Assembly: GCA_024763055.1 (NCBI GenBank)
Contig: JANTGH010000002.1
Span: 1-61,565, forward strand
Direction of reading: 5' to 3'
From: Desulfobulbaceae bacterium
Lineage (GTDB): Bacteria; Desulfobacterota; Desulfobulbia; Desulfobulbales; Desulfobulbaceae
DNA length: 61,565 bases
A model generated the notes under the pieces. It had not been told where the DNA came from. It saw nothing but the letters and a program-made list of their open reading frames with translations, and searched no databases. Of the stretch, positions 23,011 to 33,028 are shown in pieces (within the stretch, counting starts at the first letter, position 1; each line of letters opens with the position of its first letter). Position numbers and translations under genes: made by a program.

Positions 23011-23147
23011 TTACCATGATATTTCTGTAAAAGAGAGTTGACAAATCGCCTGATACAACCTTATGTTGTGTTCAAATGAACAAAACCTTTCGGGGTCTGT
23101 CGGTGAAGTTGCCCGGTCGAAACCCGGAAGGATAACACAAGGAGGGT

Positions 23148-24785
23148 TTGATGATGAATAGCCGGCAATCTAAAGTTAAGTGGTTCATGCTGCTGGCAGG
23201 TACCTGCTTATTCATGTCGGCAGGGCAGGTCGGGGCAGTTGGCGCAAAGGATACCGTCAGTATGGACGGTTCGGCCTCTCGGAATACACTGAGTTCAAAA
23301 CATATTTCAACGGCGGACCATTCCAAATTTAAAGCGCTTGATCAGGAGTTTGCAACTGGCCAGGAGGTCACTAAGGCCTGTCTGAGTTGTCATAACGAGG
23401 CCGGCAAACAGTTCCATAAAACCTATCACTGGACCTGGGAGTCCACAGGCGGAGTTCAAAAGGGGGTCGGCAAGAAAAACGTTCTCAACAATTTCTGAAT
23501 TGCTGTTCAATCGAACTGGTGCAGGTGCACCAGCTGCCACGCAGGATATGGATGGAAAGATGATTCCTTTGATTTTTCTTCGGAAGAGAATATAGACTGT
23601 CTGATCTGTCATGATACGACGGGCACTTATAAAAAGTTTCCGACAAGTTGCGGAAATCCACCCTATAAAGAAAAAAAATTCGGAAAAAAAGTCTTTAAGC
23701 CGGTTAACCTGAAAAAGGTTGCCTTGCATGTCGGTGCAAGTTCCAGGGCTACATGCGGGGCTTGTCATTTTAAAGGTGGGGGTGGTGACGGCGTCAAGCA
23801 TGGTGATCTTGATTCCTCTTTAATCAAACCCGATCATGGACTTGATGTCCATATGGATGCCAAGGGATTGAATTTTTCCTGTACGAAGTGCCATACCTCA
23901 AACGGACATCAGATTGAGGGTCGTTTTTATTCCATGCCGGCCACAAAAAATCATAAACTGGCCATGCCCATGGACAATCCCTCGCGGATTGCCTGTGAAT
24001 CGTGCCATGGCCTGCATCCACACAATAATACACCCAAACTCAATGATCATACCGCCAGGGTTGCCTGTGAGACCTGCCATGTTCCTGTGTTTGCGAAGAA
24101 AAAACCGACGCTTGTCTGGTGGGATTGGTCAACGGCCGGCAAATTTAAAGAGGACCACAAGTTTATTGTCAAGAAGGATAAACTGGGTAAGGTTTCCTAT
24201 CATACGAAAAAGGGGGATCTTGGTTGGGCAAAAAACGTTGTGCCCGAGTACAACTGGTTCAATGGTGTTGTCACCCATGTCCTTGCCAAGGATACCATTG
24301 ATGATAGCCGTCCCGTGCGGATGACCATTCTTCATGGTGACCGGAATGATCCCAAATCTCGAATCACTCCGTTTAAGATGCTTCGAGGCAAGCAGGTTTA
24401 CGATGCCGGTAACAAAACCCTGGTTGTTCCAAAGCTTTTTGGGCCCAAGGGATCAGGTGCCTACTGGAAGGACTTTGACTGGCAGAAATCCGTAGCAGCT
24501 GGACAAGAAGCTGCCGGGTATCAATTCAGCGGCAAGGTTGGTTTTATCGAAACCGAATACCTCCGCCCTGTTGCCCATATGATTGCCCCTAAGGAAGAGG
24601 CGTTGAGTTGCGCAAGTTGTCACAGCAGGGACGGCAGACTGAAAAAACTGGCCGGTTTTTATATGCCGGGCCGGGATCGTAGTATCAATATTGACCGGAT
24701 CGGCTGGCTGTCTTGCTTGGCGTTACTCGTACTTGTTGGCTTGCATGGGGCTGTACGATTCATAACCTCAAAGGGGAGGAAGTAA
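23148..24785 (+). CDS. octaheme c-type cytochrome (OTR/octaheme tetrathionate reductase type) with an in-frame TGA, candidate selenoprotein
   Basis: 23148-23498 and 23724-24785 are in the same frame with no other stop between; the only interruption is TGA at 23496-23498. Signal peptide plus exactly eight CXXCH motifs (CLSCH, CTSCH, CLICH, CGACH, CTKCH, CESCH, CETCH, CASCH). Confidence 0.88.
23516..23533 (+). promoter_or_regulatory. candidate bacterial SECIS hairpin
   Basis: CTGGTGC-AGGT-GCACCAG: perfect 7-bp stem, 4-nt loop with G at position 2, loop starting 24 nt after the TGA. Confidence 0.75.
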
Positions 24786-25473: not shown

Positions 25474-25515
25474 GGGTGCCTTGAAAATATATTTTTTCAA
25501 GGCACCCCTTTTTTT
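25474..25515 (+). terminator. hairpin/terminator; arms match the ends of the 52496-52637 element
   Basis: GGGTGCCTTGAAAA-tatatt-TTTTCAAGGCACCC then TTTTTTTG. Confidence 0.75.
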
Positions 25516-25555
25516 GTTTATAAATGCAAGGCCTTTTGTGAAAAGTGGAGATATA

Positions 25556-26395
25556 ATGTTTCTGTATTTGGTGGTTGTTCTTTTTATCCTGTTGCCTCCA
25601 TATCCTCTGTATGCTGACGATACGGTGATAGTACCGGTACGGGTTGACAACAATATAATGGCAACCATATTTTCCGGTCATGAATTTATGCATTTCTCGG
25701 TTTCATGGTCAGGCGGTATTAAGATCGGCGATCTTTTTCTTACAGTTGAAAAGGCCGAGAACAGTCAAGGCTTTGTTATAAAGGCCACGGTAAAGGATTA
25801 TGGCCTGTTTCGTCTTTTTTACCCTGTGGATGACATCTTTACCACTCTTGTCCTCGGGCCGCTGATGTTGCCTTATCGTTATGAAGTGTTGCAGAAAGAG
25901 GGACACGGGTCTGCCACAACCCACCGGCTGACTGTCTATGACCAGCAGAACCTGAAGGTCAGTTACCGTAAAAACGAGGGAAAAGTTAAAGAATATTCCA
26001 TTGCCGGGACTGTCTATAATGAATTTTCCTCATTTTTTATTACCCGGGCTTTGAATTTTCAGCAAGGGCAGCAGATTGTGCCCACTTTTGTTGATGAAAA
26101 ACGTCATGAGGTTGCGGTTGTTCTGCTTGGTCGCGAAAAAATAAGAAGGACATTGTTCGGTGAGGTAGACACGTTGAAGGTGATGCCGAAAATGGATTTT
26201 AAGGGACTTTATGATAAGGATGGGGACACGATTTTCTGGCTGACCGATGATAGTTGCCGAATACCGGTTGTCATTAACTCAAAAATTATGATTGGTTCGT
26301 TGACGGCAAAACTTATGGAATATACAAATCCCGCCTGCCGCATATGGGCCGGCGGGAAAAAATTACAACGACAGGAAATCGAGTTGGGTGATTAG
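25556..26395 (+). CDS. exported DUF3108-like protein
   Basis: Signal peptide MFLYLVVVLFILLPPYPLYA; FEFMHFSVSWSGGIKIGDLFLTVEK-like opening as in DUF3108 proteins; start after GTGGAGATATA. Confidence 0.65.
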   Translation: MFLYLVVVLFILLPPYPLYADDTVIVPVRVDNNIMATIFSGHEFMHFSVSWSGGIKIGDLFLTVEKAENSQGFVIKATVKDYGLFRLFYPVDDIFTTLVLGPLMLPYRYEVLQKEGHGSATTHRLTVYDQQNLKVSYRKNEGKVKEYSIAGTVYNEFSSFFITRALNFQQGQQIVPTFVDEKRHEVAVVLLGREKIRRTLFGEVDTLKVMPKMDFKGLYDKDGDTIFWLTDDSCRIPVVINSKIMIGSLTAKLMEYTNPACRIWAGGKKLQRQEIELGD

Positions 26396-31929: not shown

Positions 31930-32756
31930 GGATTGTATCCTTTTCGTCGTTTTTTCGATAGTCCGAGCAACTGGGTAGCCTGGACGGCAATTTCCTCAAT
32001 GGATTTTCCTTCGGTATTTAATGTTTTGATTGAATGTTGCAGGCAAAGCTGCTCTGCCTGATGAATTTCATCGGCACAGGTGGACAGTTTTGCGTAGCTG
32101 CTGCCCGCATAACGTTTTTCCCTGATTTTATGGAGATACCGAGGGGAAGTGGTCAGGCCTATGGTATACTGGCGATTGCGGACAATATCGACGGGTAGCT
32201 CGTAGTTGCTTAAGTGATCAGAGGTGAGGGGAAAATTTGCGGCTTTAAAACCCATATGGGTAGCAAGATAGACGCTGACCGGAGTCTTGCCGGACCTTGA
32301 TACCCCGATCAGGATTATGTCCGCCTCACTATAGCCCCTGGTATTTTTTCCGTCATCATGTTCAATGGAGTAATGGATTGCCTCAACCCGCTGGTCACTT
32401 TGTGATGAATCACCATGTCTGAAATAGCCGGGTTCCCGAAGCGCCTTTGCCTCAAGCGCCATTTCCAAGGTGTTGAGAAAACCGGCATACAGGTCAAGTA
32501 TTTCAACCTCGGCCACATCAAAGACCGATCTAACTTCCTTGTCCATGATGGTGCAGAAAAGCAGAGGCTGCAGAACGCTTGACCGCTTGAGAATTTTTTT
32601 AAGCGCTTTTTGAGCATCGTTTACTGTACGGATAAAGGGAATTTTTTCTTCGTTAAAATTGATCTCCGGAAATTGACAAAGCAACGACCTGCCCATTTCT
32701 TCTGTTAATAATGCTGTTGAATCAGATATATAGTACACATCTTTAATCTTCCACAT
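31926..32756 (-). CDS. PEP synthase/PPDK regulatory kinase-phosphorylase (DUF299)
   Basis: VYYISDSTALLTEEMGRSLL; ADIILIGVSRSGKTPVSVYLATHMGFKAANFPL. Confidence 0.92.
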   Translation of the reverse strand: MWKIKDVYYISDSTALLTEEMGRSLLCQFPEINFNEEKIPFIRTVNDAQKALKKILKRSSVLQPLLFCTIMDKEVRSVFDVAEVEILDLYAGFLNTLEMALEAKALREPGYFRHGDSSQSDQRVEAIHYSIEHDDGKNTRGYSEADIILIGVSRSGKTPVSVYLATHMGFKAANFPLTSDHLSNYELPVDIVRNRQYTIGLTTSPRYLHKIREKRYAGSSYAKLSTCADEIHQAEQLCLQHSIKTLNTEGKSIEEIAVQATQLLGLSKKRRKGYNP

Positions 32757-33028
32757 TATTCTTTCTCCTTGATTCGTTTATGGCAAAACAGGCACCGGTA
32801 TTTTGGGGGATGGTCTTTGGGCAGCGGGGCCATTGCATCTTTGGCATGGCATTTGTTACAGTGTCGTTCCGCCTCTTTCTTTTTCATGGTCATAAATTGC
32901 GCGTGGTCATCGTTATTTGGCAGGTGGGCGGTCGTTTCCGGAGGCGCATTCCAGAGGAAGAGGAAAAGTCCGGCGCAGACAGCAAGAAAGAGAAGGTTGT
33001 AAACGAATGTTTTTTTAGTTTTTTGCAT
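32756..33028 (-). CDS. small membrane-anchored or exported diheme c-type cytochrome
   Basis: N-terminal hydrophobic segment; HCNKCHAKD and RCLFCHKR motifs. Confidence 0.75.
   Translation of the reverse strand: MQKTKKTFVYNLLFLAVCAGLFLFLWNAPPETTAHLPNNDDHAQFMTMKKKEAERHCNKCHAKDAMAPLPKDHPPKYRCLFCHKRIKEKE

Follow-up and report, generated by a model that had tools for sequence, protein, structure and literature searches.

Evidence for a selenocysteine-containing octaheme cytochrome c of the OTR family with a predicted SECIS hairpin overlapping its heme II codons

In the present study, we analyzed a 61,565-nt stretch of DNA from a Desulfobulbaceae bacterium (hereafter, the window), in which a gene for an octaheme cytochrome c is interrupted by an in-frame TGA. 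Selenocysteine (Sec) is the rare 21st amino acid, and the original prediction had proposed that it occupies this position. The following features were found at the locus:

23151..24785, + strand: coding sequence of the putative Sec octaheme cytochrome (OTR family, TIGR04315), with a likely signal peptide, eight CXXCH motifs and a C-terminal membrane helix
23496..23498, + strand: in-frame TGA, read as Sec and equivalent to Cys64 of S. oneidensis OTR (PDB 1sp3) by homologue comparison
23516..23533, + strand: predicted bacterial SECIS hairpin CUGGUGC-AGGU-GCACCAG, 7 bp, from conservation and the criteria of PMC13188914
23526..23540, + strand: heme II attachment motif CTSCH, the first codons of which are part of the SECIS hairpin, from sequence and the 1sp3 alignment (catalytic role from PMC4484225)
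24788..25399, + strand: cytochrome b561-type membrane subunit (Ni_hydr_CYTB, PF01292), separated from the cytochrome gene by a 2-nt gap

When TGA was translated as U, positions 23148-24785 (+) formed one frame of 545 aa, in which the TGA at 23496-23498 was the sole internal stop, with the surrounding residues NNF-U-IAVQSNWCRCTSCHAGYGWKDD. Translation confirmed that the two ORFs proposed originally, 23148-23498 and 23724-24785, share one frame broken by this TGA alone. Both pieces matched the mechanical ORF list, but the second actually runs on directly from the TGA and not from 23724. Similarly, the proposed gene at 23148-24785 held as one frame up to the TAA stop codon (24783-24785) but not in its start, since the TTG at 23148 is an unlikely start codon; the ATG at 23151 or 23154, preceded by aggagg at 23140-23145, is the likely one. 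The joined product contained exactly eight CXXCH motifs (residues 77, 126, 150, 202, 244, 282, 306 and 487, numbered from the ATG at 23151), and its N-terminal sequence looks like a signal peptide, both as had been claimed. The membrane helix at the C-terminus (residues about 512-542) and the cytochrome b561-type gene on the 3' side were absent from the original prediction.

The TIGR04315 profile match spanned the TGA and covered profile positions 1-440 of 440 with 615.9 bits, against a curated cut-off of 375 bits. The window protein matched PDB 1sp3, the octaheme cytochrome of S. oneidensis, at E=1e-122. The AlphaFold model of the protein (pLDDT 81) contained the C-terminal helix, which is membrane-spanning according to the sequence. 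In a Foldseek search with this model, 1sp3 alone among PDB folds gave a significant match (E 4.8e-48), with a TM of 0.72 by query length and 0.89 by target length. The profile score, the eight CXXCH motifs and the predicted 1sp3 fold placed the protein in the TIGR04315 OTR family. More distant OTR-like multiheme paralogues were also observed in the same genus (L105-L111 and L112-L116), including on contigs C116 and C46 of the same genome (G000).

Homologues were compared by tblastn at 80 loci taken from GTDB genomes, to which a phylum-wide search added further loci. It was observed that the TGA column held TGA in 38 distinct sequences, TGC in 47 and TGT in 26 (73 Cys genes); neither a different stop nor a different residue occurred in this set. 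Thus, the pairing of an in-frame TGA with a Cys in homologues, by which bacterial selenoproteins are recognized, was found here, and relatives with TGA at the same column were numerous. The column corresponds to Cys64 (1sp3 numbering), ten residues ahead of Cys74 of the CTSCH motif, so the Cys that the original prediction placed after NNF in OTR was correct. The CTSCH motif after Cys64 binds heme II in OTR (PMC3769277), which has been termed the catalytic heme (PMC4484225). Gly or Ala (RFGIAA/RFAIAA) occupied the column only in very distant paralogues, e.g., L105-L111 at 26-29% identity; the thiol is therefore not universal across the wider family.

The frame is interrupted by a stop codon, which speaks for a pseudogene, a sequencing error or two proteins split by a real stop. 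However, the same TGA recurred in the 38 distinct sequences, which came from many assemblies and included an isolate, and the part 3' of the TGA was under purifying selection (dN 0.11-0.12 with dS saturated, versus same-genus orthologues), while the second half alone would carry no signal peptide. The shared TGA and the purifying selection ruled out a pseudogene or a sequencing error, and we assign this whole explanation a negligible probability.

A search of the genome for selA, selB, selC and selD had been proposed as a check. All four were found, each over its cut-off (614, 374, 72 and 364 bits, respectively). Among 17 other OTR genomes, selB was over the cut-off in 11 of the 11 with a TGA-OTR versus 2 of the 6 with a Cys-OTR. 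The selD gene of the same genome (G000:C7:41519-42451, L154) itself contained an in-frame TGA and is thus probably a selenoprotein gene too. Unspecific readthrough, or an altered code in which TGA specifies another amino acid, would formally yield a protein of the same length. Nevertheless, the non-TGA homologues have Cys rather than Trp or Gly, the full Sec machinery is present, and SECIS-type hairpins are confined to the TGA genes. Another amino acid at the TGA was ruled out by the column content and the machinery, leaving this second explanation very improbable. Taken together, the comparisons strongly supported the reading of the TGA at 23496-23498 as Sec at the active-site Cys position.

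The predicted SECIS hairpin of the window has its loop, AGGU, at 23523-23526, 24 nt past the TGA, and its stem begins 17 nt downstream of the UGA. In the Sec genes of this type, here called NWC, all 7 pairs of CUGGUGC-AGKU-GCACCAG were kept (35/35), and pairing was preserved through a double change (C-G to U-A) in one case and through G-C to G-U changes in three. The remaining three Sec genes, called NEA (L146, L147 and L148), all kept 7/7 pairs of a different stem, GCAACGA-GGC-UCGUUGC, with a loop 20 nt after the TGA, four bases closer than the NWC loop. None of the 73 Cys genes reached 6 pairs of either hairpin. Both hairpins, including that of the window, agreed with the published bSECIS criteria (PMC13188914), and the energies were -12.2 kcal/mol for the window NWC hairpin and -10.2 for NEA. 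In a comparison with dinucleotide shuffles, the window hairpin did not stand out in stability (z -0.69); therefore, its stability was not used as evidence, and the SECIS assignment is based on conservation. For the WCRC residues at ordinary codon usage, the NWC stem would arise by chance in 26% of sequences, and the corresponding figure for the NEA stem was 1%; the WCRC residues themselves go together with the TGA. Within the NWC hairpin, Arg was encoded by AGG in 31/31 genes, although AGG makes up 13% of the Arg codons in these genes, and the first Cys by TGC and Thr by ACC in 35/35 each; these counts are not independent because the genes are related.

The NWC type takes its name from a Cys at position +8 from Sec, which was found in 35/38 Sec genes and 0/73 Cys genes. 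From this association with the TGA, we suspected a catalytic Sec-Cys motif, which was dropped because the NEA Sec genes lack the +8 Cys and form a different hairpin. The same association could also reflect a functional partner that forms a selenenylsulfide with Sec. We consider such a partner unlikely: three Sec genes carry Ala at +8 and make their hairpin from other codons, the nucleotide sequence of the NWC codons is itself frozen (TGC, AGG and ACC, as above), and the +8 residue sits two positions ahead of the heme II attachment Cys. Since the NEA group has Sec without the +8 Cys and the codons are frozen as nucleotides, the +8 Cys was read as RNA-imposed, and the Trp-Cys pair is best explained mainly as a by-product of the hairpin.

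To describe the distribution of the Sec form, we sampled 395 genomes of the phylum, of which 68 had an OTR-family gene (E<=1e-80) and 30 had an OTR gene with one TGA. The isolate Thermodesulfatator autotrophicus S606 (L010) also carries a TGA-OTR, in which Sec would lie in the context NNY-U-ISVVSNWCR. We masked the Sec column and built a maximum-likelihood tree from 110 sequences, in which the Sec genes fell into three groups and the starred branches forced at least four label changes; the root of this tree is unknown and some of its branches are long. A single Sec clade was rejected (p-AU 0.0018). The TIGR04315 assignment held for the tested members of all three Sec groups, including a second, distant clade of Sec-OTR genes (about 40% identity) at the following positions:

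L149, 4400-5900
L150, 4900-6300
L151, 4830-6326
L152, 3400-4749

The hairpin sequence of this clade was nearly that of the main group, and these two groups may therefore share a single old Sec origin, followed by losses, or may have exchanged the segment. Its proteins are soluble, and no cytochrome b gene lies downstream. A family 5 solute-binding protein (SBP_bac_5) was encoded next to the Sec-OTR in L149, L150 and L152; judging from the gene content, this neighbor and the missing cytochrome b suggest that electrons are supplied differently or that an uptake function is linked. Cys- and Sec-OTR paralogues occurred in one genome in two cases (L142/L149 in G208 and L143/L150 in G355), and genome G158 held two Sec types (L147/L151) along with a third OTR copy whose frame has no internal stop.

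In contrast to the second clade, a downstream cytochrome b gene accompanied 33/33 of the Sec genes that could be assessed in the two anchored groups, as it did 69/73 Cys genes. These results suggested that the cytochrome b561-type subunit is the probable quinol-oxidizing partner of the octaheme cytochrome. The same pairing of cytochrome b and OTR was proposed, together with tetrathionate reduction, in the genome paper of Thermosulfurimonas dismutans (PMC4911364). A DUF3108 protein (25481-26395, +) follows the cytochrome b gene in the window, but among the fetched loci a homologue was present in only 3, so it is not a conserved partner. Elsewhere in the window (32756-33028, -), the sequence encodes a small protein with a membrane anchor and two CXXCH motifs, probably a diheme cytochrome c.

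As a whole, the locus is very probably a genuine selenoprotein gene, encoding a membrane-anchored octaheme cytochrome c of the OTR family in which the invariant active-site Cys64 is replaced by Sec. In the proposed mechanism, SelB and Sec-tRNA would read the UGA owing to the hairpin 17 nt downstream, which overlaps the heme II codons. Menaquinol would be oxidized by the cytochrome b561 subunit, and the electrons would reach heme II, on the periplasmic side, by way of the eight hemes. There, the selenolate could attack tetrathionate or a related sulfur compound at its S-S bond, and the transient Se-S adduct would then be cleaved by electrons from heme II. Selenium would be expected to speed the thiol step or make it reversible.

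Besides tetrathionate, S. oneidensis OTR can reduce both nitrite and hydroxylamine (PMC4484225), so the Sec-OTR might instead serve chiefly for these nitrogen substrates or as an electron conduit, with a structural or protective Sec rather than an S-S nucleophile. The Cys/Sec lies close in sequence to the heme motif, and its catalytic role is putative, which leaves room for such a function. On the other hand, the column was strictly invariant, with no substitution other than Cys/Sec, and Cys and Sec changed repeatedly on the tree, which together points to selection on nucleophilicity or redox reactivity. A chiefly nitrogen-directed or conduit function is therefore possible but doubtful. A broader reading appears to us evenly balanced: Sec may have entered the OTR family at the thiol of the catalytic heme on two or more occasions, with a separate SECIS evolving each time within the codons of the heme II motif. 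An RNA element would then dictate residues beside the active-site heme, and the Sec forms would make up a separate respiratory S-S reductase of Thermodesulfobacteriota that uses selenolate chemistry at a heme.

Sec adjoining a catalytic c-type heme would represent unusual chemistry, and the two different hairpins would provide a clear case of a SECIS shaping the protein sequence near an active site. Because natural Cys/Sec pairs exist, including the paralogues within G208 and G355, what selenium contributes to a sulfur-respiring cytochrome is directly testable. In addition, standard gene finders cut Sec-OTR genes in two at the TGA, and sulfate reducers and sulfur disproportionators may therefore have OTR activity that escapes notice.

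The original prediction knew of no described Sec-containing member of the family. This has to be corrected, since Table 1 of a May 2026 review (PMC13188914) lists a Sec-containing "tetrathionate reductase family octaheme c-type cytochrome" (TIGR04315, WP_331457571.1) as "GenBank annotated"; the existence of a Sec-OTR is thus not new. Our literature search, with most subscription journals outside its coverage, returned no other mention of a Sec-OTR, nor did we find a description of the Cys64 position, the breadth of occurrence, the two SECIS types, the several origins or the soluble second Sec clade. The main text of a 2025 selenoprotein-prediction paper (PMC12013277) named no cytochrome.

WP_331457571.1 is probably the same kind of protein as the window cytochrome: it belongs to the same NCBI family and has one Sec. 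Its row gives no Sec motif, and the available passages of the review give no position, SECIS, distribution or function. The same table lists a Sec-containing ExtKL multiheme cytochrome and a GSU2204-type CXXCH protein, which also combine Sec with c-type heme or CXXCH but belong to families other than OTR. Compared with the SECIS of E. coli fdhF (GGUUGCAGGUCUGCACC), the window hairpin (GGUGCAGGUGCACC) shares the AGGU loop start and the GC-ACC arm; its loop, however, starts 24 nt past the UGA instead of about 17, and its stem is a straight 7 bp without the bulged U of fdhF. The letters of the fdhF element were confirmed in E. coli. The closest comparison is with S. oneidensis OTR (SO4144, PDB 1sp3), to which the window protein is homologous over the whole length, with eight CXXCH motifs in each and the equivalents of Lys56, Asp150 and Lys153 conserved. 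We had taken Lys153 to be the lysine ligand of heme II, which differs from the published assignment; residues matched to 1sp3 indicated that both Lys56 and Lys153 were conserved. In that publication, Lys56 is named as the heme II lysine ligand of OTR (PMC3769277). The window protein differs from S. oneidensis OTR in the predicted Sec in place of Cys64, in the additional C-terminal membrane helix and in the cytochrome b561-type gene that follows it.
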